A stretch of DNA of 64,000 nt, taken from the NCBI GenBank assembly GCA_019753175.1, contig JAIELK010000030.1:1-64000 (forward strand), written 5' to 3'. A program made the translations under genes and the position numbers. Shown piece by piece: positions 39,758 to 61,488 of this stretch. Origin of the DNA: Hyphomonadaceae bacterium (GTDB lineage Bacteria; Pseudomonadota; Alphaproteobacteria; Caulobacterales; Aquidulcibacteraceae). Numbering within the stretch: the first letter of the stretch is position 1; each line of letters starts with the position of its first letter. The notes beneath the pieces were generated by a model, which made no database searches, was not told the origin of the DNA, and saw only the letters and a list, made by a program, of their open reading frames with translations.

Positions 39758-40288
39758 TCAGTTTTCCCGCCGGACGCGATGCGACCGGCCGGCCTCATCC
39801 GGGCTCAAGATGTAGCTGGACAGGGCCCCGCGCCGGATCGTCACTGCATCGCCGGGATCAATGCCGCCGATGCGTTGTGGCTCGGTTTGGGTCCAGCGCT
39901 GGCCATCGTCCATGACGAAGGAGTGCCGGCCGTCGCCGTGGCGAATGATGCGCGCAACCCGCGTCTCCACGCTGGCGATCGGTTCGCGCTCGCCGCCGGC
40001 GCCGAGAAGTAAGCGCGAAAGGTTCGGTACGCTCAAGCCGAAGGCCTCGCGTTCTAGCGCGTCGACCCGCGTTTGATCCACGATGATCGAGCGCGCATTC
40101 GATGAGGTGCTGGCGACATCGGCGCCAAGCCGATCGTAGCACGCCAAGCGCGGCTCGGCGGCCTCCACCGAGGCGCACGCGCGAACGCGGCTCAGGAGGT
40201 CGCGGTCGCCGCCATCCTGTGCGTGGGCGAAACCAATCGAGAGCGCCCAACACAAACCTGCAAGCGCGTAAGGTCGAGGTCCGATCAT
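39758..40288 (-). CDS. secreted hypothetical protein
   Basis: Signal peptide; RACASVEAAEPRLACYDRLGADV...VARIIRHGDGRHSFVMDDGQRWTQTEP. Confidence 0.65.
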   Translation of the reverse strand: MIGPRPYALAGLCWALSIGFAHAQDGGDRDLLSRVRACASVEAAEPRLACYDRLGADVASTSSNARSIIVDQTRVDALEREAFGLSVPNLSRLLLGAGGEREPIASVETRVARIIRHGDGRHSFVMDDGQRWTQTEPQRIGGIDPGDAVTIRRGALSSYILSPDEAGRSHRVRREN

Positions 40289-40573
40289 GGGTGGCGGTTA
40301 GCAGTCTTTCTCAGGCTGCTCAATCGGCGAACCGAGAAATGCAGTGAAAACGCGCATCTTTCGTCGCGACAGAAAGATCACACCTCGCTGAAAGCCTCTC
40401 ATTGTGCAGCTTTGCGCGCGTTAGCCGCCGACGCGATGCAAGACGGCGTTCGCGACCGCCTCCCTTATACGGCATCCGGCTATTCGCATGCATCGCATGG
40501 CGTTGACGCGGGGATGCGACGCTCGCGCGATGGTCGCGCTGTCTGGTCGTTTGAGTTGCGAGGGATGAGAGAC

Positions 40574-43489
40574 ATGTCTTCTAAGACGGTGCGGAAGTCA
40601 TTGCTGACTGGAGCTTCGTTATTCGCCGCCGCGGCGGTGACGCTGGCGGCGACGCCCGCGGTCGCCCAGGACGACACTGCTGCTGTAGAAGATGAGGAAA
40701 TCGTCGTCACGGGGTCGCGTATCGCGCGCCCGGGCTTCACCTCAACCAGCCCCATCGCCACCATCGGCGGCGCCGAGCTGGCGCTACAGCAGCCGCTGAA
40801 TGTTGAGGAATTGCTGCGAAATCAGCCCCAGTTTGGTGCAGGCGACGGAACGCAGACGAACAACGGGTCGCGCGGCGCCGCCACGCTAAACCTGCGGGGA
40901 TTGTCGCCTACGCGCACGCTGCCGCTGATCGATGGCAAGCGTATTGTCGGTTTCGATCCATCGGGATTGTTCGACACCAGCGCTGTGCCGCTGGCCCTGC
41001 TCGAACGGATTGACGTGGTGACCGGTGGCGCTTCGGCCGTGTACGGGTCCGACGCTATTGCTGGGGTTGTGAACTTTGTTCTCAACGATGATTTCCGCGG
41101 CGTGGAGGGGCGTTGGGAGCATACGCTGAACGATCTTCACGATACCGGCGACGCCGACAGCGCGTCGCTGACGATCGGATCGAGCTTCGACGACGGGCGC
41201 GGTAACGTTGCACTGAGTGTCGGCTGGCTCGATCGGGAGGCTGTTTATCAGGTCGAAGGTCCGGCGGCCCTCGCTCCGGGCGCCAGCTCCACCACGGTCC
41301 CGGCAGCGGTCGACTCCGCCGTCGGCGGCCGCACCCAGTTCAACAATGCCGGTTCGCTGGTTCCGTTCTTTCAAGCCTTCGACTTCAACGGACAGAACCT
41401 CTACCAAGCGCCGCAGCAGCGTTGGAACGCGACAGCGATCGGGCGCTATGAGATCTCCGACGCGCTCGAGGCGTACTCGCGCTTCATCTACAACAGCTCA
41501 ACGAGCGCGCCGCAGCTTGCGTCTTCGGGAACGTTCGGGCTGACCTTCGCGGTGCCGCTGAACAGCCCGTTCCTTTCGGTGCAGGCGGCAAATTATTTGG
41601 CGGCTAACAACACAGTGAGCGACTGCGCCGTGCTTTCTACAACCAACGTGGCGATCAACGCCTACGGCGTTTCCGCGCCTGCGGGGGTTAATTGCGTGCC
41701 GGTTGGACTGCGCTGGCGAGGCGTGGCGGTGGGTCCGCGGCAATATCAGTTCGAGTACGACACCTTTCAGACTCTCGTCGGCCTGCGCGGGGACATTGGC
41801 GAAAGCGGATGGGAATGGGACGTTGCGTACGCCTACGGTGAAACAAGCCTGAAGCGGCAACAGAACAACGACATTGACGCTACGCGCGTGCAGCAGGCCT
41901 TGTTCGCCACCGGGCCGGCGACATGCTTCGATCCGTCGAACCTCTGTGCGCCGCTCAACATCTTCAACGGCAGCACCTCCCCATCGGACGCGGCGCTGGA
42001 CTTCATTCGCCTGAATCTTCAGGTGCAGTCGTTGACGACGCAAGAGTACGTCATCGGTTCTGTGTCAGGAGACACCGGCGAGATTCATAGCCCGTTCGCA
42101 TCGTCGCCGATTGGCGCTTCGTTCGGTATCGAGTGGCGTCGCGAAAGTTCTGACTACCGGCCGGACGCCGCCTCGCAAGCGGGCATTTCGCCGGGCTTCG
42201 GACAGACACTCCCCGTTGCCGGCAGCTTTGACGTGTTCGAGGCGTTTGGCGAAGCCTTGGTGCCGATCGTTGAAGACGCGCCGTTCGCGGACTCGATCAA
42301 CCTCGAGCTCGGCTTCAGAACCTCAGAGTACTCGTCTACCGGCCGCGCCGAAAGCTACAAGTACGGCGCCGACTGGACGCCGTTCGAGGGGCTCCGCTTG
42401 CGTGGGATGTTCCAGCAGGCGGTGCGCGCGCCGAACATCAGCGATCTGTTCACGCCATTCACACCGGGAACGGGCGACCTCTTCGTTGATCCCTGTGCGC
42501 AACAGGTGCTGACGTCGGGCTCGCTGTTCACGTTGTGCGCGGGAACTGGCGTGCCGGTGGCCGTTTTGAACGCCGGCACACTGGCGCAACCAACGTCGGG
42601 ACAGGTGAACAATTTCATTTCCGGCAACACAGACCTCAATCCCGAGGTGGCGGAAACGTTCACCGCTGGCTTCGTCTGGCAGCCGCCTCAACTCGGCGGG
42701 CTGTCGGTCACGGTCGACTATTTCAACATCGAGATAGCCGATGCGATCTCGGTGCGCCCGGCTCGCGATATCGTAGACGGGTGCTACAACATCGCGCGTA
42801 ACACGACCGTCAATCCAAACGCCGCCGATTGCCAACGCATCTTGCGCAATACCAATGGAAGCCTTGAAGGCGACACCATCTATGGCGTCGATCAAACAAC
42901 CGAGAACATCGGCGACGTTCGGGTCGAAGGCATCGACTATGGGATTTCATACACATGGGACTTGGGCGCCTGGGGCGAACTCGACACGGCGCTCGACGGC
43001 ACGCACTTGCTGACCACCAGCTATGTGCCAAGCCCGGGCGGCGCCGAGATCGATTGCCTCGGCTACTACGGAAAGAGTTGCGGTCTCCCGGAGACGGTGA
43101 ACGCTTCGGTTGGCGGCCCTGTCTCGCAAGACCGGTTCGTGCAGCGCACGACGTGGTCAATCGCAGACTGGGAGCTGTCGTATCGTTGGCGCTACCTCAG
43201 CGCCACTGAGGTGACGCCAGAGGACTTGGCGGACTCCACCACCGCCGGCGGCCTGCTCGACCCGAACTCGCTGTCGATTGACTCCTTCAACTACATCGAC
43301 CTGGCGGCCACTTGGGAGCCGATGGACTTTTTGCGTCTGACGGCGAGCATCACCAACGCCACCAACGAGGACGCGCCGTTCGTGTTCACGACGACAGGCT
43401 CGACTGCGTACAACAGCGGCAACACCTATCCGAGCAGCTATGACGTTCTGGGACGTGTATTCACGCTCGGTGTGCGCGCCAAGTTCTAA
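40574..43489 (+). CDS. TonB-dependent receptor
   Basis: Signal peptide; EEIVVTGSRIARPGF TonB box/plug; ASAVYGSDAIAGVVNFVL; C-terminal aromatic strand GRVFTLGVRAKF. Confidence 0.95.
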   Translation: MSSKTVRKSLLTGASLFAAAAVTLAATPAVAQDDTAAVEDEEIVVTGSRIARPGFTSTSPIATIGGAELALQQPLNVEELLRNQPQFGAGDGTQTNNGSRGAATLNLRGLSPTRTLPLIDGKRIVGFDPSGLFDTSAVPLALLERIDVVTGGASAVYGSDAIAGVVNFVLNDDFRGVEGRWEHTLNDLHDTGDADSASLTIGSSFDDGRGNVALSVGWLDREAVYQVEGPAALAPGASSTTVPAAVDSAVGGRTQFNNAGSLVPFFQAFDFNGQNLYQAPQQRWNATAIGRYEISDALEAYSRFIYNSSTSAPQLASSGTFGLTFAVPLNSPFLSVQAANYLAANNTVSDCAVLSTTNVAINAYGVSAPAGVNCVPVGLRWRGVAVGPRQYQFEYDTFQTLVGLRGDIGESGWEWDVAYAYGETSLKRQQNNDIDATRVQQALFATGPATCFDPSNLCAPLNIFNGSTSPSDAALDFIRLNLQVQSLTTQEYVIGSVSGDTGEIHSPFASSPIGASFGIEWRRESSDYRPDAASQAGISPGFGQTLPVAGSFDVFEAFGEALVPIVEDAPFADSINLELGFRTSEYSSTGRAESYKYGADWTPFEGLRLRGMFQQAVRAPNISDLFTPFTPGTGDLFVDPCAQQVLTSGSLFTLCAGTGVPVAVLNAGTLAQPTSGQVNNFISGNTDLNPEVAETFTAGFVWQPPQLGGLSVTVDYFNIEIADAISVRPARDIVDGCYNIARNTTVNPNAADCQRILRNTNGSLEGDTIYGVDQTTENIGDVRVEGIDYGISYTWDLGAWGELDTALDGTHLLTTSYVPSPGGAEIDCLGYYGKSCGLPETVNASVGGPVSQDRFVQRTTWSIADWELSYRWRYLSATEVTPEDLADSTTAGGLLDPNSLSIDSFNYIDLAATWEPMDFLRLTASITNATNEDAPFVFTTTGSTAYNSGNTYPSSYDVLGRVFTLGVRAKF

Positions 43490-43501
43490 CTGAGCGGCCT
43501 T

Positions 43502-43531
43502 AGACGGCAGGAGCAAATCCTCCTGCCGTCT
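43502..43531 (+). terminator. terminator-like hairpin after TonB-dependent receptor
   Basis: AGACGGCAGGA-GCAAATCC-TCCTGCCGTCT. Confidence 0.6.
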
Positions 43532-43586
43532 GACTTCGTTTCCGAGCGCGAGGCACCGGCGCCCTTGTTCACAGTCGGGCGTATTC

Positions 43587-44936
43587 ATGCAGGACGTGGA
43601 AGCAACCGCCCAGATCGACGCGATCATAAGCGCGGCGCGCGCCGCAGCCAATCGCGGCGACTGGCTCACGGCGGAGCGTCTGTGGAAAGAGCTTCGCGCG
43701 CTTGAGCCTGGCAATGCGCAGGCGGCTTTCGGACTTGCCATCCATGCCATGCGACGCGGCGAGTTCAAGACGGCGCTGCCGTTGATCGAACAGGCGTGTG
43801 CGGCGTCGCCCAACGATCTGCTGGCGCGCCTGACGCTGGGTATTGCCTGGCGTGAGCTAGGCGAGCCTGAGCGCGAACTCGACGCGATCGACGCGGCGCT
43901 GGCCATCGATCCCTATTTCCTGCCTGCCATCTTGGCCAAGGCCTCGTGGTTTGAACGCAAGAGCGCGGAAGCGGCCGCCGCGCTCTTCTATCAGACCGCG
44001 CTGAAGTTCGCGCCGGACGAACCCGCGTGGCCGCCTGCGCTGCGTGCGCAGCTTCTGCACGCGCGCGCGATCGCTGATCGGTTCGCCGAGACGATGGAAC
44101 GGCAAATGTGGGAGCTGCTGGCCCCGCATCTTTCGAATGCACCGGCGCTCGAACAGGAGCGCTGGAAGGAAGCGGCGTCGATCATCGCGGGCCGGACCAA
44201 GCCCTTTCCGTCGCAATGCAACCAATTGCACGTGCCGAGGCTTCCGGCCGTGCCGTTCTTTGACACGGCGCAGTTTCCGTGGTTCGACGCCATTGAAGCC
44301 GCAACCGACGCGATCCGCGCTGAGCTGATGGCCGCGCTCAAGCAAGATCGGCGGCAGTTCACGCCTTATGTCGCCTACAAGCCCGGCGCCCCCGTGAATC
44401 AATGGAAGGAGCTGAACCACTCCGAGCGTTGGAGCGCGTATCACTTCTGGCGCAGCGGCGTCGCCATTGACGAACACCTCGCCGCCTGTCCGAGAACCGC
44501 GGAGGCGCTGCGGCGGGTGGACATGGCTACAATTGGCGGGCTTTGCCCGAACGCGATGTTCTCCGCCTTGGCTCCCCATACCCATATTCCGCCCCACACG
44601 GGTGAAACCAACGCCAGGGTCGTCGCCCACCTGCCGCTGATCGTGCCGGACGGGTGCAGCTATCGCGTTGGCTATGAGCGTAGGCGGTGGGAAGTCGGCA
44701 AGGTGCTTGTGTTCGATGACACCATTGAACACGAGGCCCGCAACGATAGCGACGAGCTGCGCGTGGTCTTGATCTTTGACGTGTGGAATCCACACCTCTC
44801 GCCAACAGAGCGAGAGGTCGCACGCGTCACCATGGAAGCCGTGCGTCGCCTGACTGGCGTAACCGGTGAGAGTGATTCGGTTGGCGCCGCGCAGTCCACT
44901 CAAGCGCACGCCGCAGTTCATCGACGTTCTCTGTGA
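43587..44936 (+). CDS. TPR plus aspartyl/asparaginyl beta-hydroxylase domain protein
   Basis: N-terminal TPR-like repeats; C-term FSALAPHTHIPPHTGETNARVVAHLPLIVPDGCSYRVGYERRRWEVGKVLVFDDTIEHEARNDSDELRVVLIFDVWNP. Confidence 0.92.
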   Translation: MQDVEATAQIDAIISAARAAANRGDWLTAERLWKELRALEPGNAQAAFGLAIHAMRRGEFKTALPLIEQACAASPNDLLARLTLGIAWRELGEPERELDAIDAALAIDPYFLPAILAKASWFERKSAEAAAALFYQTALKFAPDEPAWPPALRAQLLHARAIADRFAETMERQMWELLAPHLSNAPALEQERWKEAASIIAGRTKPFPSQCNQLHVPRLPAVPFFDTAQFPWFDAIEAATDAIRAELMAALKQDRRQFTPYVAYKPGAPVNQWKELNHSERWSAYHFWRSGVAIDEHLAACPRTAEALRRVDMATIGGLCPNAMFSALAPHTHIPPHTGETNARVVAHLPLIVPDGCSYRVGYERRRWEVGKVLVFDDTIEHEARNDSDELRVVLIFDVWNPHLSPTEREVARVTMEAVRRLTGVTGESDSVGAAQSTQAHAAVHRRSL

Positions 44937-45191
44937 CTTGGTCGCAGCTCCGAAAAAAGCGCACGCAGGGCAAGAAACGGGTTCGTCTACGCTTTATGTG
45001 CGCTCGTCGTGCGCGCTGAAAAACGAACCTTTCACTTCACCTTAAGCCAGCATGAAAAACCGCACAAACACGCCAGAGTTCGCTGAGTTTGCGCCAATCA
45101 GCGCCATCTTCTCTCAGCGGAAGTGCGGTTCGCGAGTACACTGGTTGTGCGGGAGTCAGACCGACGCCCGATAACAAGGAGAGAGAGCGCC

Positions 45192-45962
45192 ATGGTGGGC
45201 CTGGGTTTGTCGATCGCATCTGGCGTGCAGACGACCCGTCTCATCGGCGCCGGCGTGGCGTCGCTTCACTCGTTGCTGGACCAGCTGCCGACGGTTCCGT
45301 TCTACGCCAAGGACAGGATGCTGCACTTCACCAACGTGAACGCCGCCATGGTCGCCCTGTGCGGCGTGCCGCGTGCGTCGCTCAAAGGCAGGGGGGCGAG
45401 CGAGTTCTTTGCCGAGGAAAGCAGCGACGCGATGACGGCGGTCGAACTCGAGGTGATGTCCACGGGGCGCGCCGCAAGGAGCCGCATGGTGCATGTCGCG
45501 CCGCTGCATGCCGCCCCTGTCTGGCTCCTGCTCAATTGCTGGCCGATCGTGGAAGACGATGGCGAAGTGGCCGGGGTCGCTGCCGTCGGGCATGCTTTGC
45601 CCAACAGCAACCGCAAGGATCACGGTTACCGGCGCGTCGCCGAGGCGGCCGCATTCGTCACGCAGAAGCTCTCATCGCCCATCCGGGTGAGGGATCTGGC
45701 GCAAAGGGCGGGCGTGTCGATTTCGCGCTTCGAACGAGACTTCATCGGCGTCTTCGGCGTGCCGCCGAATAAGTACGTAGCGATGGTTCGGCTGGAAGCG
45801 GCCATGGACATGCTTCGCGGCACCGGTGATCCGATAGCCGAGATCGCGCACGCCTGCGGCTACGCCGATCAGAGCGCGTTCACGCGGCGCTTTCAGGCGG
45901 CCACCGCCATGACGCCGAGCGAGTACCGGCGCAGCAGCATACGCGAAGCGGCGCGCCGCTGA
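45192..45962 (+). CDS. AraC family regulator with PAS-like N-terminal domain
   Basis: LLDQLPTVPFYAKDRMLHFTNVNAAMVALCGV (PAS-like) then IRVRDLAQRAGVSISRFERDFIGVFGVPPNKYVAMVRLEAA...IAHACGYADQSAFTRRFQ. Confidence 0.88.
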   Translation: MVGLGLSIASGVQTTRLIGAGVASLHSLLDQLPTVPFYAKDRMLHFTNVNAAMVALCGVPRASLKGRGASEFFAEESSDAMTAVELEVMSTGRAARSRMVHVAPLHAAPVWLLLNCWPIVEDDGEVAGVAAVGHALPNSNRKDHGYRRVAEAAAFVTQKLSSPIRVRDLAQRAGVSISRFERDFIGVFGVPPNKYVAMVRLEAAMDMLRGTGDPIAEIAHACGYADQSAFTRRFQAATAMTPSEYRRSSIREAARR

Positions 45963-46157
45963 ACTCCATTTTGAATGCGAGATCGTCGGCAGCCGTGGCT
46001 TGGCAGCGACACAAATCACACATGCGTTCATGAAGACGTTGCTTGTGCCGAAATCGGCGCGAACCGTCGAGCGACTGCACAAGACGGCGCAATTGCGACC
46101 CCCGCAGAATGACAGTCTAGCCAGCGTGGTTGGCGCAGGCGATCGTAGGGGGTCAAG

Positions 46158-49100
46158 GTGAAGTTTACTCGCGAACGAGCAAGCGTTTTGGGTGCATCGA
46201 TGCTGGCGCTGGGCGCCATGCTCGCGCCGAGCCAAGCGGTGGCGCAGACAGAGCCAGCGCAGACCGAAGAAACGCAGGAAGACGAGATTGTCGTTGTCGG
46301 TTCTCGCATCCGACGCGACAACTTCAACTCAAGTTCGCCGATACAGGTCGTAACGCGCGAGGAGTCAGTGCGGGCCGGCCTGGCGTCGACGACAGAGACG
46401 CTGCAGAGCACGTCGGTGACCGCAGGGAGCGCCCAAATCAACAATTTGTTCGGCGGCTTCGTCGTGAACGGCGGCCAGGGCGTCAACACGCTCGGCCTGC
46501 GCGGCTTCGGGCCGACGCAAACGCTTGTTCTGTTGAACGGTCGCAGACTCACGCCGGCGGGGACGCGTGGGGCGGTTGGCGCGGCGGATCTCAACACCAT
46601 CCCGTCGGCGCTGGTCGATCGCATTGACATCCTGAAAGACGGCGCCTCATCGGTGTACGGTTCGGACGCGGTGGCTGGTGTTGTGAACATCATCACCACC
46701 GAGCAGCTCGATGATTTCGTGCTCGAAGGGCAGCTCAACATTCCGGAGCAAGAAGGCGGCGGGCAGACCCGCATCTCGCTTTCCGGCGGCGGCAGCTTCG
46801 GCAATCTGACCGTGACGGGGTCAGCCGAGTACTATGAGCGGGACACACTGACCTATGGCCAAAGGGAGTTCTCGCGCTGCCCAGTGGACGGGATTCGCGA
46901 TCCAGCGACGGGGCAGAGTCTTGAGGACATCGACCCGCTGACCGGCGAGGTGAAGTGCTGGGGTATCACGTTCGGCAACTCGCCCGGCACCACAATGAAC
47001 ACGATCGGCACCGCGAGCCGCGCCGGGTTCGGCGGTCCGGGCGCCGCGGTGTTAGGCAATTTCACGCGCTGGCGGCCAAACTCTGGCGTCGGCGACGGGG
47101 TTGGCGGGAGGCTTGATGGCTTTGAAGGCGTGAACGGCGGCGGCTTTGGCTTCGCGAACCGAGATACGTTCGACCCAGACATGCTGGATCAAGAACTGAT
47201 CACGCCCACCCAAACTAACAATTTGTTCCTGCAAGCGCAGTACGACTTGGGCGCACACGAGCTCTATGGCGAGCTGCTTTATTCAAACCGCACGTCGTCC
47301 GGCCTGGGTTATGTGCAGCTGACCTTGGATTACCCAAATAACGGGCTGCTTCTGCCGGCGGAATTGCGCACCGGGTCTCCTTTCGCAGTGCTGTCGACGT
47401 TCCCGGCGACGTTGCCGACGAATGTGCCGATGCCCGCACCGTATGCGACGCAAGTGCGCGCCTTCACCGGCTTCGGCAATACGTCCGCGACTCAAGACGT
47501 CACTTACACGCGTTATGTCGCGGGCTTGCGCGGCGACCTCGGATTCGCTGACGAGTGGCGCTATGACTTCAACGTGTATCACGGCAAGAACGAAGCCGAT
47601 AACGTGCAGGAAAACTTCCTCGTTGACCGCGTGTTCAACTCACTTGTCGTCGTGGAAGCGCCCGGTGGCACGCCGGCACACCTCACACGGACTGTGCCCT
47701 GGGATCCGGATGGCGCCGGCCCACTGGCGCCGGGCGCACGATACATGTGCGCCATTACCGCGACCAACCCGGGTTATGGCTGCATTCCCGCGCCGCCGGT
47801 CACGTCTTCCACCGTCGGCGGCAAATATCCCAGCGACTGGGTGAATTGGATCCAGCAGTCCTTGCTTGAGCGAAATCTCTACGAGGAAACCGCGCTCCAG
47901 CTGATCGTTGACGGTCCGCTCTTCAGTGTGCCCGCAGGTGAAATTCAGGCGGTGTTCGGCGTCGAGTACCGGACGGCGGAACTCGACAACGTGCCTGACT
48001 TCAACAACATCAACGGAAACATCTACAACTTCTCCTCATCGGGAATAACGCGCGGCGAAGACAGCGTGCGTGAGCTGTTCACGGAAGTGGAAGTGCCGTT
48101 GCTTCGAGATCAAGCGTTTGCTCAGTCGCTGACGCTGAATGTGTCGGGCCGATACACCGACTATGACTCCTACGGCAGCGATACGACCCACAAACTGGGC
48201 CTCACGTGGGAACCTGTAGACACGCTTCTCGTCCGGTACGGGCGTGGCACGTCGTTCCGGGCGCCGGCGCTGTTCGAACAGTTTCTTGGGTTCCAGAGCG
48301 GCTTCTTGGCCAACACTGCCGATCCATGTGACGGCTATGGCGCGCGCGCGCCGACCGATCCCATCCGCATCAATTGCCACGCGGAGATTGGCAATCTGGC
48401 GTTCTTGCAGACCTCCGGCGTGACAGTCTTTGGCGCGGGCGGGGCGGTCTTCGATCTCGCTGCTGAAACCTCTGAGAACGAAACCTATGGCTTCAGCTGG
48501 CGGCCGTTGCAGGACGTGGAGGGCTTCGGCGAATTCTCGCTCGCCATTGACCACTTCTCGATCGAGCTGAACGACGCCGTCGCACAGCCGGGCGCCCGCA
48601 ACATCTTGAACATCTGCTACGGTAGCGCGAACCCAGCCACGGAGCCTTATTGTTCATTCGTGTCACGTGATCCGAGTTTTCGCCTGACGGTCACAAACCG
48701 CTACTTGAACATCGCGAGCCAGGTGGCGGAAGGATATGACTTCGGCGCGCGTTATGTGCATACGTTGTGGGACGGCGAAATCACGCTCGTGGCCAATCTG
48801 ACGAACTACACCACGCAGCAGTTTCAGCTGCTCGACATCTTCAGCCCGACTGACACGAACGGGAGGATCGGCGCACCGGAACTCACGGGCGACTTTAGCA
48901 TGAACTACGGGAGAGGTCCGTGGAACTTCCGCTATGGGTTCAGTTGGATCGACGGCATGAGCGATTACAACGCGCTCGGCCAGGATCCGGAGACCTCGAT
49001 CTTCATTCTGTCGACGCCGGACTATTATCTGCACGACGCCTCGGTTGAGTATGAGGCCGACTCATGGCGGGTGATCTTTGGTGTTCGAAACATGTTCGAC

Positions 49101-49223
49101 GAGCAACCGCCGGTGGTGTCCTCCGTCAATCCGCTGATCAATGGTCTCGGCTCGATGCCGATCTACAGCGGGCTCGACTACGTGGGCCGCCAGTTCTTCG
49201 TGAACGTGTCCACGCGGTTCTAA
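46158..49223 (+). CDS. TonB-dependent receptor
   Basis: Signal peptide; DEIVVVGSRIRRDNFNSSSPIQVVTREE; LVDRIDILKDGASSVYGSDAVAGVVNIIT; C-term VGRQFFVNVSTRF. Confidence 0.95.
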   Translation: MKFTRERASVLGASMLALGAMLAPSQAVAQTEPAQTEETQEDEIVVVGSRIRRDNFNSSSPIQVVTREESVRAGLASTTETLQSTSVTAGSAQINNLFGGFVVNGGQGVNTLGLRGFGPTQTLVLLNGRRLTPAGTRGAVGAADLNTIPSALVDRIDILKDGASSVYGSDAVAGVVNIITTEQLDDFVLEGQLNIPEQEGGGQTRISLSGGGSFGNLTVTGSAEYYERDTLTYGQREFSRCPVDGIRDPATGQSLEDIDPLTGEVKCWGITFGNSPGTTMNTIGTASRAGFGGPGAAVLGNFTRWRPNSGVGDGVGGRLDGFEGVNGGGFGFANRDTFDPDMLDQELITPTQTNNLFLQAQYDLGAHELYGELLYSNRTSSGLGYVQLTLDYPNNGLLLPAELRTGSPFAVLSTFPATLPTNVPMPAPYATQVRAFTGFGNTSATQDVTYTRYVAGLRGDLGFADEWRYDFNVYHGKNEADNVQENFLVDRVFNSLVVVEAPGGTPAHLTRTVPWDPDGAGPLAPGARYMCAITATNPGYGCIPAPPVTSSTVGGKYPSDWVNWIQQSLLERNLYEETALQLIVDGPLFSVPAGEIQAVFGVEYRTAELDNVPDFNNINGNIYNFSSSGITRGEDSVRELFTEVEVPLLRDQAFAQSLTLNVSGRYTDYDSYGSDTTHKLGLTWEPVDTLLVRYGRGTSFRAPALFEQFLGFQSGFLANTADPCDGYGARAPTDPIRINCHAEIGNLAFLQTSGVTVFGAGGAVFDLAAETSENETYGFSWRPLQDVEGFGEFSLAIDHFSIELNDAVAQPGARNILNICYGSANPATEPYCSFVSRDPSFRLTVTNRYLNIASQVAEGYDFGARYVHTLWDGEITLVANLTNYTTQQFQLLDIFSPTDTNGRIGAPELTGDFSMNYGRGPWNFRYGFSWIDGMSDYNALGQDPETSIFILSTPDYYLHDASVEYEADSWRVIFGVRNMFDEQPPVVSSVNPLINGLGSMPIYSGLDYVGRQFFVNVSTRF

Positions 49224-51684: not shown

Positions 51685-52833
51685 TCAGCGCACGAGCTTG
51701 ATATCTTCCTTGGCGGCCCAGGCGTGGACGTCCTGGCGCTTTAGGGCGGTCGCCATCAGGTCAGGGAATTGGTCCGGCGTGCAGGCGAAAACTGGCGCGC
51801 CGAGCGCGGCCACGCGCGCGGAGAGCTGGGGATCATAGGCGGCGTGACCTTGATCGCTCAGCGCCAACAGCACGATGACGTTCACGCCCATGCCGATGAG
51901 GCGCGCCAGGCGCGTCAGCATTTCCTCGGCGTTGCCCCCTTCGTAGAGGTCGGTGATCAAGATCAGGTGCGCCTTGCTCGGCCGCTCGATCTTGTCGGCG
52001 CAATAAGCGACCGCCTGGTTGATGTCGGTGCCGCCGCCCAATTGCACGCCGAACAGAACCTCCACCGGGTCCGCCAATTCCTCGGTCAGGTCCAATATGA
52101 CGGTGTCGAAGCACACGAGCTTGGTTTTCACCACCGGCAGCGACGCCATCACCGCCGCGAAGATGGAGGCGTAAACGACCGAACTTGCCATTGAGCCGGA
52201 TTGATCGACGCAGAGCACGACCTCATCGAGGTCGACCAGGCGCCGCTGTTGGCGCATGAAGCCAATCAGGCGCTCCGGCACGACGGTGTGGTGCTCGGCT
52301 TGATAATGCTGGAGATTGGCGCGGATGGTGCGTGGCCAGTCGATATCGGCAAAGCGCGGGCGATTGGTGCGCCTGGATTTGTCGACCGCGCCGCGCAAGG
52401 CTTCGGCGGTTTTTCGCTCCAGCCGTTCCATCAATTCGGCCACGACCTTGGCGATGACGATGCGCGCGGTGTCTTTAGTTTTCTCCGGCATCACATTGCG
52501 CAGCGAGATCAGGTTCGCGACGAGGTTGATGTCGGCTTCGAGCGCGGCGAGGAATTCGGGCTCCAGCATCATGCGCTGCAGGCCGAGGCGTTCGAAGGCG
52601 TCCTTCTGCACGATCTGGACGACCGGCGATGGGAAGTACTCACGGATATCGCCCATCCAGCGCGCTACATTGGGGGCTGAACTGCCGAGGCCCCCGCGCC
52701 GCTTCTTCTCGTCAGCATCGCCTTCGCCGTAAAGCGCGGTAAGCGCGCCTGAAAGGCGCTGATCCCCCGTGCTGAGTGCATCATCCTCACCGCCCAGAGC
52801 CAGGCGCCAGCGGCGTTCGCGATCTTCACTCAT
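51685..52833 (-). CDS. VWA domain-containing protein (CoxE-like)
   Basis: MIDAS-like motifs: VVLCVDQSGSMASS, LGGGTDINQAV, LILITDLYEGG. Confidence 0.92.
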   Translation of the reverse strand: MSEDRERRWRLALGGEDDALSTGDQRLSGALTALYGEGDADEKKRRGGLGSSAPNVARWMGDIREYFPSPVVQIVQKDAFERLGLQRMMLEPEFLAALEADINLVANLISLRNVMPEKTKDTARIVIAKVVAELMERLERKTAEALRGAVDKSRRTNRPRFADIDWPRTIRANLQHYQAEHHTVVPERLIGFMRQQRRLVDLDEVVLCVDQSGSMASSVVYASIFAAVMASLPVVKTKLVCFDTVILDLTEELADPVEVLFGVQLGGGTDINQAVAYCADKIERPSKAHLILITDLYEGGNAEEMLTRLARLIGMGVNVIVLLALSDQGHAAYDPQLSARVAALGAPVFACTPDQFPDLMATALKRQDVHAWAAKEDIKLVR

Positions 52834-55078
52834 CGGCGGGCCTTGCGGTGAGAATTTGTGAGAGGCGCGCAAAGTGCGCGGGCCAAATCGCGGCGGCGTC
52901 GGGCAACAGCGCGCGGCGAGCGAGACTGGTCTCTACTCGGCCTAACAGAGCATCGAGCAAACGCTTGCGCTGCATGCGATCGAGATTGGAGAGGGATCGC
53001 CGGAACAACGGCAGATATTCCACGAATTGATCGCCGTCGAGCGTCTGCATCCAGCAATCGACCGCCTCGCGCAGAGCGGCATCATGGATCAATTGCTCGC
53101 CGGCGCCTTCGAAGAAGCCTTCGAAAAATCCGGCCGCGTCGATCACGGCTCTGCCCGGCGAGAGCGCGCGCCCGAGCAAGATCGCCGCCGCATCTGGCGC
53201 CAGCGCTCCCGCTTCGTAGAGCAGGCGCGCCGCCGCGCCCGCGACCAGGGGCGTTGCCTGGCCGTCGTGAACCAGCGTTTCCAAAGCCTCGCGCCAGGGC
53301 GCGCGCTCGACCTCTGACAGATCAATGAGCGCGACTGCGCCATCGGCGGCGCGTATAATCGCGCATAGGGTTTTGGCCGCGTCCTGATCGAGGCCGCGCG
53401 CGGCGTAAGGTAGCGCCAGCGCGCCCTGGATGAGCAGGCGCGTCAGCAAACCGTTCAGTTGCGCCGAGTCAGTCTCGCGCGCCTGGCCGTAGCGCAAAAT
53501 GGCGGCCAGCGGTGGCGCCGCCGCGAGCAGCTCGGCGCAATCGCTGGTCTGCGCGGCGCGTTTTTCGATCAGCGCGATGCCGCGTTCGGTCGCTGCGGGC
53601 AGCTGCGCGACCAGCGCGGCGTGAACCAGATCGGCCAGTTGCTTGAGATCGCTGGCCTGGTCGAGCTTGGCGCCGACGCGACCAGCCGCCGCCTGCGCGA
53701 TGGTTGGTCCGTAGACCAAATTCTCCACCAATTGCACGGCGAATTCCGGTTCCCAGCGCAGCACCCAGCGCTCGCGAAAGGTGCCGCGGGTGCGCCCGGT
53801 TTCAGCGAGCTTGCCCCAGGCGACGCCCAGGAGCGTGAGGCGATGCAGCAAGGTGGAGCGGTCGAGCCCGCTTTCGCTGCGCAAATCGATGGCGAGTTCA
53901 CGGTCCAGCGCCTCGGGTTTGAGGCGCGTGCGCTTCTGTTCGCGCTGCAGATCCTCGAGCAACGGCGCGAGCGGCACGTTGTGGGGAATGGCGCCAACCT
54001 CGGCGCCGATCAGCAGGCGCGCAGAGATGGTCGACCAAAGCAGCGCATCGCCGAAGCAGAGGCACGCGATCGCTGCTTCGCGCAATTCCTCGAAGCCCGG
54101 CGAAGGGCGCCCGCGCATGGCCGCAAGCGTCATCGCAAGGCGTTCGGCTTCGATCAGCGAAGCGGTTGAGACCATGTGGCCGTCGCCGCGCAGCGACGCA
54201 GCGATGCGCGTGAGCCAACGCGTGGCGATTTGCGCACGCGCCGTTGTCCAAATGTGTACGCACCAGCCAGGCGCGGCGACGCCCGCGCCGTAGCCGCTGG
54301 CGAAAGCAAGGCGCGGCGATGTCCACGGCGCCCAGGTCGCCGCGATTTTCTGTTTCGGCGCGCCCTTCAGCAGCGCCTTGTCCGCGGCCGCGGAGACCTT
54401 CTGACTGAGTGCGGGTGCATGCCAAGCGCCGCACACGACGGCGACGCCGCCGTCGGTTTCCTTCACGGCCTTGGCGATTTCCAGGCGCATGTGCGCTTCG
54501 CGCGCTGCCTCGCGCCCCTCGGCAACGGCGCCTTCGCGCAGCGCGCTCATGGCGTCGGCAATGGCGGCAAAGACCGGGCCCGGCGCGGGATTCTCCTCGA
54601 TGACATCGCGCCACCAGCTTTCGCTGTCCTCATAGCCGGCCGCTTGTGCAAGCGCGCCGATGGGGTCGCGCTCGAGCGGGTTGGCTTCTTGTGAGGGACG
54701 TTCTTCGGCCGATTGTTCCGCGCCTTCTTTGGAGTCACTTTCCGGCGCCTCGGGTGGGGCCAGGCGCCAAGCAGCGGGCAGGTCGATGAAACGCACCGTC
54801 GCGCCGTTGCGCATGGCCCAGCAGGCTGCCTGGTATTCGGGAGAATAGGTCGCGAACGGCCAGAAAATCGCGCGCGCTGGATCGTCGGCGGCGTAGGTGA
54901 GCAACGCCACCGGCGGGACCATCGCCGGGTCGGCCAGCATGGGCAACAGGTCCGAGGCGTCCGTTGGCCCTTCAATCAGCACTATGGTCGGGCTCAATTC
55001 GTCGAGCGCCTCGACCAGCCTGCGCGCGGAGCCGGGCCCGTGGTGACGAATGCCGAGGATGTGAACGGCCGACGCCAC
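52826..55078 (-). CDS. DUF5682-like family protein
   Basis: VHILGIRHHGPGSARRLVEALDELSPTIVLIEGPTDASDLLPML...VALLTYAADDP...VAVVCGAWHAPAL; between MoxR and VWA genes. Confidence 0.85.
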   Translation of the reverse strand: MASAVHILGIRHHGPGSARRLVEALDELSPTIVLIEGPTDASDLLPMLADPAMVPPVALLTYAADDPARAIFWPFATYSPEYQAACWAMRNGATVRFIDLPAAWRLAPPEAPESDSKEGAEQSAEERPSQEANPLERDPIGALAQAAGYEDSESWWRDVIEENPAPGPVFAAIADAMSALREGAVAEGREAAREAHMRLEIAKAVKETDGGVAVVCGAWHAPALSQKVSAAADKALLKGAPKQKIAATWAPWTSPRLAFASGYGAGVAAPGWCVHIWTTARAQIATRWLTRIAASLRGDGHMVSTASLIEAERLAMTLAAMRGRPSPGFEELREAAIACLCFGDALLWSTISARLLIGAEVGAIPHNVPLAPLLEDLQREQKRTRLKPEALDRELAIDLRSESGLDRSTLLHRLTLLGVAWGKLAETGRTRGTFRERWVLRWEPEFAVQLVENLVYGPTIAQAAAGRVGAKLDQASDLKQLADLVHAALVAQLPAATERGIALIEKRAAQTSDCAELLAAAPPLAAILRYGQARETDSAQLNGLLTRLLIQGALALPYAARGLDQDAAKTLCAIIRAADGAVALIDLSEVERAPWREALETLVHDGQATPLVAGAAARLLYEAGALAPDAAAILLGRALSPGRAVIDAAGFFEGFFEGAGEQLIHDAALREAVDCWMQTLDGDQFVEYLPLFRRSLSNLDRMQRKRLLDALLGRVETSLARRALLPDAAAIWPAHFARLSQILTARPADE

Positions 55079-55083
55079 CGCGC

Positions 55084-56163
55084 TCAGACCAGATCGACCA
55101 GCATGCGATAATATTCCGCGTAATCGGCGCGCTTCTTGAGCACCGCTTCGAGATATTCTTCCAGCACCGCTTTGTCCTGCACCGGGTCCTTGACGATGGC
55201 GCCGATCATGTTGGGGGCGATGCCTTCGGCCGAGAGCTTGCCATTGTTGAAGAAGGCCGCTTGGCTCAAACCGCCGACCATGACGGCGATGGCTTCGGCG
55301 GTGGAGAGCGAGCCGGACGGCGTCTTCAGTGTCGTCTTGCCGTCAAGCGTCGCGCCACCGCGCAGTTCGCGGAAGATGGCCACAACCCGAGCAACTTCTT
55401 CGGCGACGTTTTTCGGCGCCGGCAAGTCGAGGCTCAGAGCCATCTCGCCGACGCGCTTGGTGACGATGGCGATCTCCTCGTCCATGTCGCTGGGAAGCGG
55501 CAGCACCACCACGTTGAAACGCCGCTTCAGCGCGGAGGAAAGTTCGTTGACGCCCTTGTCGCGATTGTTCGCGGTGGCGATCACGTTGAAGCCGCGCACG
55601 GCGTAGACGGCGCTGTTCAGTTCCGCGATCGGCATCATCTTCTCGGAGAGCACGGTGATCAGCGTGTCCTGCACGTCCGAGCCCATGCGGGTCAGCTCTT
55701 CGAGGCGGCAGAGCTTTCCCGCTTCCATGGCGCGAAACAGCGGCGTCGGCACCAGCGCCTGGCGCGACGGGCCGTGCGCCAGCAATTGCGCGTAATTCCA
55801 GCCGTAGCGGATCTGGTTCTCGTCGGTGCCTGCGGTGCATTGGACTATCATGGTCGAGTCGCCGCTGATGGCGGCGGCGAGATGTTCGGACACCCAGGAC
55901 TTCGCCGTACCCGGCACGCCAAGCAGAAGCAGCGCACGGTCGGTGGCGAGCGTGGCGATGGCGGTCTCGATCAGGCGCTTGTCGCCGACATATTTGGCGC
56001 TGATCGGGGCTCCGTTCTTGGCCTTGCCGCCCATGAGATAGGTGACGGTCGCGCGCGGCGAAAGCGCCCAGCCTTGCGGCTTGTTCTCATCATCGCCGCC
56101 GCGCAGCGCTTCGAGTTCTGAGGCGAAGGTCTGTTCCGCGGGAAGGCGCAGCGTGTCGCTCAC
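55084..56163 (-). CDS. MoxR-type AAA ATPase
   Basis: Walker A LLLGVPGTAKSWVSEHL; AMEAGKLCRLEELTRMGSDVQDTLITVLSEKMMPIAELN; ATANNRDKGVNELSSALKRRF. Confidence 0.94.
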   Translation of the reverse strand: MSDTLRLPAEQTFASELEALRGGDDENKPQGWALSPRATVTYLMGGKAKNGAPISAKYVGDKRLIETAIATLATDRALLLLGVPGTAKSWVSEHLAAAISGDSTMIVQCTAGTDENQIRYGWNYAQLLAHGPSRQALVPTPLFRAMEAGKLCRLEELTRMGSDVQDTLITVLSEKMMPIAELNSAVYAVRGFNVIATANNRDKGVNELSSALKRRFNVVVLPLPSDMDEEIAIVTKRVGEMALSLDLPAPKNVAEEVARVVAIFRELRGGATLDGKTTLKTPSGSLSTAEAIAVMVGGLSQAAFFNNGKLSAEGIAPNMIGAIVKDPVQDKAVLEEYLEAVLKKRADYAEYYRMLVDLV

Positions 56164-57578
56164 GATTGGGGCTCCGTGGTTAGGGCGGCGTTCAGATACA
56201 GCACGTCAAGCTTAGGGTCGGCGGGCGAGAGGCCGCGCTCGGCGAGCTTTGCAACAAGGTCGCGGGCGCCGCGCGCATCGAGAATGAGGCCCAGATGATT
56301 GAGATGGGTGGCGAGAAGAGCGTTGCCGTGCGCTGGCTGAGCGTTGTCAGTCTTGCTTAGCGCGGTGTCGAGGCAGTGGGTGACCTGCGCAAAAGCAGGC
56401 GACGCAAGCACCGCGTCGAGCGCTGCCACGCCAAGGTCGCGTCCCATGAACGCCAGCGTTACCGACAATCCACCCGCGTCGTGCGCGAGGATTCGCTCCA
56501 GCAGCGTGCGTCGTTCTTCAAGCGAGAGGCGCTGCGCCAACACGGGCGCGCAGCGAAGCAGGTCGGCGCTCTCAACAACATGGCCCGCGAGCGTACGCAC
56601 CACTTCGTCGCTGCCGCTGAGCGCGACCTGGTTCACAAAGGCCTGTATCGCACCCCACTCACCGGCAGGCGGAGCTTCAACAAGCTGCATTTCGCTCGCC
56701 TTGAGCGCGCGCGCCAGTCCAGCCAGGCTCACAAGGTTCAGCAATTCCAAGCGCCGCGCGTTCTGCGGCCCGGTCTTAAGCGGCTTGAAGGCAATGTGCG
56801 TACGCCGATTGATCAAGCCGGTCTTCCCAAGCTCGACCATGTCGGCGAGTTCGGCCTCAGGCGCTTCTGCGTTGTCGCCCTTGCCCAGGCGCGCCAGAAA
56901 AGCGCGCGCCAGCCCCGCGACGCGATCGGAGCGATCCTTGAGCAAGGTTTCGATAAAGGAGGCGTCGGTCTCGCTAAGCTTGTGCGCCAGGATCTCGATA
57001 AGCCGCAGGCGCCGCTCGGCCGGCTCGGTTGCGGCTTTCGCCTCAATGATCGCAAGCGCCGCGGACGGGTTGCTTTCGCGCATGCGAACCAGGGCGAGCC
57101 GGCGTTCGCCCCATGACCAGGTTTCATAGGTGTCGGCGGTGAGTTCTTCTTCGTGTGGCGCCGTGGCCTCCGCGCGAACCCAATCAAGCCAAGGCGAATA
57201 GAGATCTGGCGCCCAATCGTCGCGTGGACCAGGCATCCAATCGCCAGGATGAACACAAAAGCCGCGCGCGGCGATCAGATGCAGGAGTTCTTGTTCAATC
57301 GGCGCACTGCTCTTCTGTGTAGCTCTAATGCGGCGGAAGCGGGCGCGCGTTTCCTCGGGAAGCGTGGGCGCAGCAAGCGGCGGAAGCAAAGGACGCGGTT
57401 CGAGCGGTTTGGCGGGGGCGGCGCGATAGAGCGTTTCATGCGCGACGCCCGCCAACGCGGCGAGTGCGGCCTCGCTGTCCGCCAGCGCGCGCCACGCTTC
57501 AGGGCAGCAGGCGCGCGCAGATTGGCCGGCCATCCAGGCGTCGCGCATGCGCGAGAGCGAACCATCGATGTCATGCAT
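56160..57578 (-). CDS. DUF5691-like helical-repeat protein
   Basis: 472 aa, helix-rich (FIETLLKDRSDRVAGLARAFLARLGK); position in MoxR/VWA/SWIM cluster. Confidence 0.75.
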   Translation of the reverse strand: MHDIDGSLSRMRDAWMAGQSARACCPEAWRALADSEAALAALAGVAHETLYRAAPAKPLEPRPLLPPLAAPTLPEETRARFRRIRATQKSSAPIEQELLHLIAARGFCVHPGDWMPGPRDDWAPDLYSPWLDWVRAEATAPHEEELTADTYETWSWGERRLALVRMRESNPSAALAIIEAKAATEPAERRLRLIEILAHKLSETDASFIETLLKDRSDRVAGLARAFLARLGKGDNAEAPEAELADMVELGKTGLINRRTHIAFKPLKTGPQNARRLELLNLVSLAGLARALKASEMQLVEAPPAGEWGAIQAFVNQVALSGSDEVVRTLAGHVVESADLLRCAPVLAQRLSLEERRTLLERILAHDAGGLSVTLAFMGRDLGVAALDAVLASPAFAQVTHCLDTALSKTDNAQPAHGNALLATHLNHLGLILDARGARDLVAKLAERGLSPADPKLDVLYLNAALTTEPQS

Positions 57579-58935
57579 CGAAAGCGAGCCTCCCCCAATT
57601 GGTGCGCGCGGCCACGAGTGAGAGCCGCGCGCCATCCCAGAGGCCAAACGCGTTGTCGATCGCTGCGCCCATGCCGAGTAGCGGCGGAGCGGTACGCAGC
57701 GGCGCTACAATTCCAGTGTCCGAGCGCCACCAATGCAGCTTGCCCTCTGGGACTAGCCGTCCCGCCGACAACAGCACGGGGGTTTCCACGCGCCACGGCG
57801 CGGCCATGAGCTGAGCCGCGTGAGCCGTTATCGGATCGGCATCGGCCGCGGGCCAAGCGCCATCGCCGGGCTCTGCATCTTGGCGCGCGGCAATGACAGC
57901 GCGCAATGGCGCGCACGCGGGATAGAACGCAAGCTCCGCATCGATGCTCTCGCCGGCGACAAACGCGCCGCCGCGCCGCCCGGCGGAGGCTGGGAAGAAA
58001 TCCAGCAGCAGAGCGAAACGCTGTGGCCCGCCGTTTGTGTTCAGAAGCCAAGTCGATTGACTGATGAGGCCGTCCCGCCGCGTTGTGATTTGCTCGCCGA
58101 GCACTTCCCAGGTTGAGCGGACGCGCGGCGCGTCGGCATTGTTCAACACGTCATCGCGTGACTCGGAATTGATCACCTCGCGGCGCAATTCGGGATCGTC
58201 CGGTTGCGCGCGCCATGCGCGCGTCAGCAGCGCGAGTTTGCCCAGTTCACGAATAGCGGCGTCGATGCGCCCATCGTTGGGTAGGGTCAGCAGGCGGGAC
58301 GGCATTTCGTCGACGCGGCTCGCGAGTGCCGCGGCCTTGGCGTCCACCAGACGCGCGGCGATGCGGCGGCAGCGTTCGCTGAGTTCTCCCAAGAAGCCAG
58401 CAAGGCCAGTGCGGAACTGATCTTCGATCCAGAGATCGAGATCTTCAGTGGCGCTTCGAACTGAGCGGCGTGTTTCGAGAGCGCGTTTGCCGGAAGCGGC
58501 CTTGCGTCGCGCTTCGGCTAGGGGGTCGAGCGGTCTTGCTTCGAGCGTCGCTGCGGCGACGTCGAGGCTTTTGGCGTCGTTTGAAGTGGAAACGGGCGCC
58601 GCCGCGCCCTTTCGTCTGCGCCCCATCCAATCATTGACCCAGTCAGGAATGGATCCTGGCTGGAACGCCGCTGCGTTATCGACATACATCCACATCAGCG
58701 CGAGCGCGTGTTTGCAGGGGAATTTGCGTGAGGGACATGTGCATTTCGAACCGTGATCGGCCGTATCAGCGACAACGCGATACGGGTTGGCGCCCGAACC
58801 TTGGCACTCGCCCCAAATCAAGCTGTCCGCCCGCGCCCGCACCGGCCATTTCGCGGGCTTGAGCAAAGCAGACGCGGCGCTGAGCGCGCTTTGGTCGGGC
58901 GCCATCGCCTCGATCAAGCTGCGCGTGAGTCCCAT
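57571..58935 (-). CDS. SWIM zinc finger protein
   Basis: DHGSKCTCPSRKFPCKHALALMWMYVDN matches the SWIM CxCx(n)CxH pattern; internal ATG start. Confidence 0.92.
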   Translation of the reverse strand: MGLTRSLIEAMAPDQSALSAASALLKPAKWPVRARADSLIWGECQGSGANPYRVVADTADHGSKCTCPSRKFPCKHALALMWMYVDNAAAFQPGSIPDWVNDWMGRRRKGAAAPVSTSNDAKSLDVAAATLEARPLDPLAEARRKAASGKRALETRRSVRSATEDLDLWIEDQFRTGLAGFLGELSERCRRIAARLVDAKAAALASRVDEMPSRLLTLPNDGRIDAAIRELGKLALLTRAWRAQPDDPELRREVINSESRDDVLNNADAPRVRSTWEVLGEQITTRRDGLISQSTWLLNTNGGPQRFALLLDFFPASAGRRGGAFVAGESIDAELAFYPACAPLRAVIAARQDAEPGDGAWPAADADPITAHAAQLMAAPWRVETPVLLSAGRLVPEGKLHWWRSDTGIVAPLRTAPPLLGMGAAIDNAFGLWDGARLSLVAARTNWGRLAFDA

Positions 58936-59367: not shown

Positions 59368-59712
59368 ATGAGCAAAGTACACGTGAATGTCGGCACCATC
59401 GGCCATGTCGATCATGGCAAGACGACCCTGACCTCCGCGATCACGCAGGTGCAGGCGGCGCATCTTGGCGGGAAAGGCTTGTCGTTCGATCAGATCGACA
59501 AGGCGCCCGAGGAAAAGGCGCGCGGCATCACGATCAATGTGGCGCATGTGGAATACGAATCCGAGACCCGGCACTACGCCCACATGGATTGCCCCGGCCA
59601 CGCCGATTACGTGAAGAACATGATCACCGGCGCGGCAGACAAATCCAAGTGCGAACACATCCTGCATGCGCGTCGTCTCCTTCAGCGCATGAGGATGACG
59701 GGCGTCATATGA
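59368..59712 (+). pseudogene. truncated EF-Tu (tuf) N-terminal fragment
   Basis: [28 protein letters not shown]...[42 protein letters not shown] then EHILHARR; no NKxD motif, no domains II/III. Confidence 0.85.
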
Positions 59713-60408: not shown

Positions 60409-61488
60409 ATGGCCGAGCGCGGCGGGCTGATGAATGGGTCAAAAGCCCGCTGCGCTAAGGGAGATGCGTGGAAACGCCGTCTCCTCCCAGGTTTGGAAAG
60501 GGGCGGCGGCGTGCAGCGACTTGAGGACGGCTTTGGCCGTCGTTTTCCATACTTGCGCCTATCGGTCACCGAGGCATGCAATTTTCGCTGTACCTATTGC
60601 TTGCCCAACGGGTACCGAAAGTCCGCCCCCAATGATTTCCTCTCGGTCGACGAAGTATCTCGCCTTGTCCGCGCCTTTCATGCGCTTGGCGTCCAGAAGG
60701 TCCGACTCACGGGCGGGGAGCCCAGCGTGCGCGGCGATCTGGTGGCGCTCATCGCGGCTGTGACCGAGGCGGGCGTCGAGAAGGTGGCGCTAACGACGAA
60801 CGGGTGGCGCTTGGCGCGCGGCCTTAAGGATTGGGTGCGGGCAGGGCTCACGCACCTCAATGTGAGCGCCGATAGCCTCGATCCGTCTGTATTTGCGCGG
60901 GTGACCGGTCATGACAGGCTGTCCGAGGTTTTGGCAGGCGTCGATGCCGCGTTGACGCATCCGCGCCTAACGGTGAAGCTGAACGCCGTTCTTCTGCGCG
61001 ACACGCTGTCGGAGGGGTTCAGCGCTTACGCATCGTACCTGAAGAAGCGGAAAGTCAGCGTCCGCTTCATCGAGTTGATGCGCACCGGCGATAATGCGGC
61101 GTTCTTCGCAGGTCAGCACGTGCCCGGTAGCGAATTGCGGAACTGGCTTCGCGACCAGGGGTGGTCGCCAGTGGAGCGCGGCTATGACGATGGGCCAGCG
61201 ACTGAATTTTCTCATCCCGAATATGAGGGCCGCTTTGGCCTCATTGCGCCCTATGCGCCTAGCTTCTGTGACAGCTGCAATCGGTTGCGTGTGACTGGGA
61301 GAGGAAAACTGCGCCTTTGCTTGTTCGGTGATGGCGGCGTTGACTTGCGCGATGTACTGCAGACGGACGAAGACCGAGATGCGCTCATGGCGCGAATCAC
61401 AGACGCGCTCTTCTTCAAGCCCCGTCGGCATGCCTTGCTCACGGGAAATCCCGGCGATACCAAGCATCTCGCCGAGTTAGGCGGTTGA
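60409..61488 (+). CDS. moaA: GTP 3',8-cyclase (radical SAM molybdenum cofactor synthesis)
   Basis: LRLSVTEACNFRCTYCLPNGY; VQKVRLTGGEPSVRGDLV; C-term CDSCNRLRVTGRGKLRLCLFGDGGVDLRD. Start uncertain. Confidence 0.95.
   Translation: MAERGGLMNGSKARCAKGDAWKRRLLPGLERGGGVQRLEDGFGRRFPYLRLSVTEACNFRCTYCLPNGYRKSAPNDFLSVDEVSRLVRAFHALGVQKVRLTGGEPSVRGDLVALIAAVTEAGVEKVALTTNGWRLARGLKDWVRAGLTHLNVSADSLDPSVFARVTGHDRLSEVLAGVDAALTHPRLTVKLNAVLLRDTLSEGFSAYASYLKKRKVSVRFIELMRTGDNAAFFAGQHVPGSELRNWLRDQGWSPVERGYDDGPATEFSHPEYEGRFGLIAPYAPSFCDSCNRLRVTGRGKLRLCLFGDGGVDLRDVLQTDEDRDALMARITDALFFKPRRHALLTGNPGDTKHLAELGG

Follow-up and report, generated by a model that had tools for sequence, protein, structure and literature searches.

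The five genes at positions 51685 to 58935 of the window (i.e., the whole 64,000-nucleotide stretch of Hyphomonadaceae DNA analysed here) form an operon that varies on the YehL-type MoxR-VWA system known from the Escherichia coli genome, and the N-terminal ~290 residues of its DUF5682 protein are quite probably homologous to the TraB/TIKI superfamily. This TraB/TIKI-like assignment is a new result of this study and was missed by the first-pass annotation of this DNA. We give roughly even chances to the full mechanism considered here, in which the operon would encode a YehL-type AAA+-gated hydrolase complex with DUF5682 as the client and with adaptor roles for SWIM and DUF5691. The features of the operon are as follows:

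57571..58935, minus strand: SWIM zinc-finger protein, 454 aa (Pfam SWIM PF04434, E 6e-7)
56160..57578, minus strand: DUF5691 protein, 472 aa (Pfam PF18944, E 4e-18)
55084..56163, minus strand: MoxR-family AAA+ ATPase of the YehL subfamily, 359 aa (AAA_5, E 4e-36)
52826..55078, minus strand: DUF5682 protein (YehM homologue), 750 aa (PF18934, E 6e-218)
54185..55078, minus strand: predicted TraB/TIKI-like hydrolase domain, DUF5682 residues 1-298 (model and profile match)
51685..52833, minus strand: CoxE-type VWA protein, 382 aa (VWA_CoxE PF05762, E 1e-52)

All five genes are on the minus strand in the 5′ to 3′ order SWIM, DUF5691, MoxR, DUF5682, and VWA_CoxE, and translation at these coordinates revealed no internal stops. 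The successive junctions are an 8-nt overlap, a 4-nt overlap, a 5-nt gap, and an 8-nt overlap, and a good ribosome-binding site (GAGGAGG) precedes the ATG of the SWIM gene at 58935; the overlaps fit co-translation, suggesting, as far as sequence can tell, that the five genes are translationally coupled. ORFs, junctions, and Pfam families all matched the five-gene minus-strand operon, with its overlaps, that the first-pass annotation had described. The same annotation had placed the operon next to an apparent integration hotspot, a claim that found no support: no integrase was identified among the operon neighbours scanned, and the only feature of this kind is a truncated N-terminal EF-Tu-like fragment just upstream of the operon (59377-59637, plus strand; GTP_EFTU positions 2-91, E 5e-29). 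Full-length translation-factor GTPases are encoded elsewhere in the window genome, and the fragment is possibly a pseudogene or a recombination scar. A gene encoding a MoaA-like radical SAM molybdenum-cofactor protein (60409-61488, plus strand) is also located next to the operon; among 30 genomes of the genus searched, two others presented a close copy of this gene (69-78% identity) and the rest presented at most 41% identity. An empty-site comparison within the genus found that close copies of the flanking genes were mostly lacking. On the other side, two large genes encoding TonB-dependent receptors flank an aspartyl/asparaginyl beta-hydroxylase gene with TPR repeats (40223-49223, plus strand).

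DUF5682 relatives were found to be encoded in at least 592 stretches from many phyla in a scan of GTDB representative (one-per-species) genomes. The loci compared here are the best 80 of these at least 592 stretches, i.e., the closest relatives, so that the figure that follows describes the branch of the window rather than the whole family. The exact order SWIM-DUF5691-MoxR-DUF5682-VWA was present in 65 of the 80 loci, with contig ends explaining most exceptions; as the loci were fetched separately, this arrangement is far beyond chance. The 80 loci represent Proteobacteria, Cyanobacteria, Chloroflexi, Bacteroidota, Actinobacteria, Acidobacteria, Verrucomicrobia, and Planctomycetes. The first-pass annotation had asked for neighbourhood conservation to be scored, and the five families do co-occur; its view of a fixed, widely conserved unit around the MoxR-VWA pair is upheld by this count and by the invariant or nearly invariant motifs described below. 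In one case (Phytohabitans maris, L063), SWIM and DUF5691 are fused into a single 949-aa ORF, with DUF5691 behind SWIM. In both branches, almost all loci with DUF5682 also encode MoxR and VWA alongside it; four loci presented DUF5682 without the other operon genes, including one at a contig edge (L049) and three (L056, L066, and L090) for which a contig edge beside MoxR is no explanation for the missing MoxR and VWA genes, suggesting that DUF5682 is not always dependent on MoxR-VWA. Two of the latter three loci are cyanobacterial.

The E. coli K-12 sister operon, yehL-yehM-yehP-yehQ, encodes MoxR, DUF5682, VWA, and SWIM proteins, with yehI located upstream; identities between window and E. coli proteins are 42% for MoxR/YehL, 28% for DUF5682/YehM, and 33% for VWA/YehP. 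A survey of 5426 complete E. coli genomes gave matches to this operon in 5329, making it a near-universal core locus in this species. The MoxR family comprises seven subfamilies, among them YehL, which PMC3893208 names with reference to earlier work. In a MoxR tree, the window MoxR and YehL fell into one group, outside which lay the only two outgroup rows, RavA and a further MoxR-like protein encoded by the window genome; the two layouts, SWIM-DUF5691-MoxR-DUF5682-VWA and DUF4132-MoxR-DUF5682-VWA-SWIM, form one group far from RavA in this tree, and RavA gave no match to the MoxR profile of the window family. A DUF4132/YehI-like gene is located directly beside MoxR, away from DUF5682, in six of eight sister-branch loci (L100, L101, L102, L103, L105, and L107). 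The other two were L106 (same genome as L017, of the window's class), with YehI-like (WGR/DUF4132-like) genes after DUF5682 in place of VWA, and L104 (same genome as L015, of the window's class), with a WGR-like start after DUF5682 followed by the contig end. DUF4132 is absent from the window genome, with DUF5691 in its place; DUF5691 was considered as a relative of DUF4132 and rejected, as the only match was marginal and in a HEAT-like region (E 0.008). At least two genomes, Massilia and Delftia (L068/G416 and L088/G428), carry both DUF5682 branches, suggesting that one layout probably cannot stand in for the other. The literature found on MoxR subfamilies gives no function for YehL, searches found no work on what the yehL/yehM/yehP/yehQ operon does, and the literature searched holds no mention of DUF5682, in agreement with the first-pass statement that no assigned function was known. 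Its description of the five genes as a cluster of unknown function is thus right as to function, but the gene set itself is known, and both the homologous E. coli operon and the YehL subfamily had been overlooked.

The catalytic and ligand-binding motifs of the motor and its neighbours are well preserved. The alignments of the three proteins span 61-69 sequences. Walker A, Walker B, sensor, and arginine motifs of MoxR are invariant or nearly so; the MIDAS of the VWA protein is intact (DQSGSM / GGGTD / TDLYEGG), its residues varying little or not at all among 63 sequences; and every zinc ligand of the SWIM motif, C-x-C-x(6)-C-x-H at residues 65-76, is invariant in 69 sequences. This conservation suggests that the MoxR, VWA, and SWIM parts are probably all active.

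The full-length AlphaFold2 model of the DUF5682 protein (mean pLDDT 88.7, from 60 sequences) presented an alpha/beta domain over the first ~290 residues and a mostly helical remainder (~450 residues). Because helical repeats swamped a fold search with the full-length protein, which was uninformative, the N-terminal domain was modelled apart (pLDDT 88.4). A Foldseek search of this domain against the PDB placed solved structures of the erythromycin esterase EreC at ranks 1 and 2 (E 0.011 and 0.018; probability 0.84 and 0.72), HopBA1 at rank 6, and BcR135 at rank 7; all scores (E 0.011 or worse) are weak on their own, and TM-scores were low over the full length. HopBA1 and BcR135 are TIKI-superfamily folds (PMC6254334). 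A profile built from both DUF5682 branches aligned with TraB_PrgY_gumN from one end to the other (global E 3.5e-6, local E 4.1e-5), while controls with unrelated profiles and a reversed alignment gave E ≥ 0.012; the best local block aligned REAxMRxxI...VVCGAWHxPAL of DUF5682 with RNxxWAxRI...VGAGHLxG of TraB. The Pfam TraB model did not recognise the window DUF5682 and matched one member of alignment A1 at E 0.26. Ere and ChaN profiles presented no sequence-level match to DUF5682, and the sole matches from a PDB sequence-profile search with DUF5682 were helical ones in its C-terminal half, which were taken as chance.

Four residues are candidates for the active site: H12, E36, R193, and H220. 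They line up with conserved blocks of TraB and show no variation in alignment A3 (60 rows) or in the covered part of A1, two rows of which stop short of H12; the first motif reads P-V-R-H, not G-I-R-H, in five sister-branch DUF5682 members. The spacings from H to E (24) and from R to H (27) resemble those of a solved TIKI peptidase (28 and 29), in which two His, two Glu, and an Arg are needed in the active site (PMC6254334). A TIKI fold may also lack catalytic residues, as described for the PMT protein (PMC6254334). The TraB/TIKI-like domain of DUF5682 may be catalytic, as a putative peptidase or esterase.

Known MoxR-VWA pairs are chaperones or insertases that act on dedicated client complexes (PMC3893208, PMC7159879); such pairs are proposed to bind a client peptide through the VWA protein and to spend ATP on altering the conformation of the client (PMC7159879, PMC3893208). 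In the window operon, the MoxR ring and its CoxE-type VWA partner would thus represent the chaperone or switch, and DUF5682, being the constant third gene in both layouts, would most likely be their client. As this client carries a TraB/TIKI-like domain, DUF5682 may most simply be seen as a hydrolase, with peptidase or esterase activity predicted, on a helical scaffold, which ATP-driven remodelling by the motor would load, assemble, or activate. The single SWIM-DUF5691 fusion suggests that these two proteins are most likely an adaptor pair, which may jointly recruit a substrate or signal. By analogy with RavA-ViaA, which acts on Nuo, i.e., outside its own operon, the client of MoxR-VWA could instead be a protein encoded elsewhere. 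More broadly, and only tentatively, the operon may represent a widespread and hitherto unrecognised bacterial machine class in which MoxR-VWA gates a cytoplasmic TraB/TIKI-type peptidase or esterase and a SWIM-DUF5691 adaptor picks the substrate.

Three other roles were weighed against this gated-hydrolase reading. It seems unlikely that MoxR-VWA serves to insert a metal or cofactor, whether in DUF5682 itself or in an enzyme from outside the operon (e.g., a molybdenum enzyme). CoxD-CoxE, NorQ-NorD, and chelatase I/D are MoxR-VWA-type systems for metal or cofactor insertion, the window VWA is of the CoxE family, and the MoaA-like gene lies just upstream of the operon; in addition, the activity or structure of some TIKI enzymes depends on a metal (PMC6254334), and in the sister branch the DUF4132 partner has been annotated as MolR-like (PMC8533742). 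However, no common metalloenzyme or molybdenum genes stand out in the flanks of the 80 loci, and the link between MolR and molybdate was not borne out in Deinococcus (PMC8533742). We regard as more doubtful still a DNA-damage or stress maintenance system, in which the substrate would be nucleic-acid-linked and SWIM would be the DNA- or RNA-binding part. SWIM domains are often nucleic-acid linked, and the sister branch carries DUF4132/WGR-type proteins; depleting DdrO in Deinococcus radiodurans strongly induced a DUF4132 gene (PMC8533742), but the Deinococcus DUF4132 genes are not known to adjoin MoxR and the window genome lacks DUF4132. LexA-type boxes upstream of the operon were no more than expected by chance, and SOS control of the operon was rejected on this ground.

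A conflict or defence module, in which a MoxR-VWA switch would free a TIKI-type effector on infection, is the least probable of the three and in our judgement improbable. MoxR-vWA ternary systems have been predicted to be conflict systems (PMC7159879), and the spread of the family is sparse and patchy (in genome samples drawn without regard to it, 4 of 120 for the order and 13 of 299 for the phylum); among the 80 loci, no common flanking genes were found beyond close relatives, and flanks differed even inside Mesorhizobium. A few neighbours are defence proteins, and those matching Zorya, restriction, and TIR-pAgo type models appear to be genuine ones. PADLOC hits nonetheless numbered 27 families among 109 neighbours and 18 among 109 control genes, the latter from regions ~90-140 kb away on the same contigs, in gene sets that are imperfectly matched and with per-protein hits not resolved; there is thus no clear excess of flanking defence genes over control regions, and a weak enrichment is possible. 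This comparison supplies the test of defence-island enrichment that the first-pass annotation had called for, and reveals no clear enrichment. Among the five proteins, PADLOC gave no convincing component, the only match being a weak one of mad8 to MoxR (E 0.001), and a single search of viral contigs, for which the DUF5682 protein served as query, found no relative. Conflict systems typically vary in their effectors, whereas the gene content here does not change, and in E. coli the sister operon belongs to the core genome. The first-pass annotation had proposed that the MoxR-VWA pair acts on DUF5682 and/or SWIM in a nucleic-acid-linked or defence/stress process; action on these proteins is plausible, since the unit is conserved and its motifs are invariant or nearly so, but the leaning towards defence is unsupported. 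Phage defence is a less likely role for the operon than housekeeping or maintenance under stress.

The TraB/TIKI-like active site predicted in DUF5682 provides a first concrete biochemical lead for a widespread gene set, as it allows the operon to be viewed as an enzyme plus chaperone, a hypothesis that can be tested at named residues. E. coli K-12 is a tractable model and, if the hypothesis is true, yehL-yehM-yehP-yehQ would be a laboratory model of the machine class. DUF5682 is encoded in at least 592 stretches across many phyla, and nearly every E. coli carries the sister operon.

Compared with known systems, the operon shares with CoxD-CoxE, RavA-ViaA, and NorQ-NorD a MoxR ATPase and a VWA partner, the latter of the CoxE family, whereas the clients and gene neighbours of those systems are other ones. 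The ternary systems with VMAP, iSTAND, or beta-propeller components (PMC7159879) likewise combine MoxR-vWA with a third component; in the window, however, this component is DUF5682, the VWA protein lacks C-terminal effector domains, and the gene content is constant. None of the five proteins presented a VMAP, iSTAND, or beta-propeller Pfam match, and bpMoxR matched the window MoxR only at the cut-off (27.3 vs 27 bits), with AAA_5 at 124.5 bits. With the TraB/PrgY/GumN and TIKI/Ere superfamily, DUF5682 shares two GxxH-type motifs, a Glu, an Arg, and profile similarity, with fold similarity at weak scores, but it adds the mostly helical C-terminal region of ~450 residues and the MoxR-VWA pair. 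The E. coli operon also carries MoxR, DUF5682, VWA, and SWIM in one cluster and conserves the DUF5682 active-site candidates, but in it the SWIM gene is last, longer, and alike only marginally outside the zinc finger, and DUF4132 (YehI) is found where the window has DUF5691; the window MoxR groups with the YehL subfamily but represents a separate sub-branch with its own gene set.
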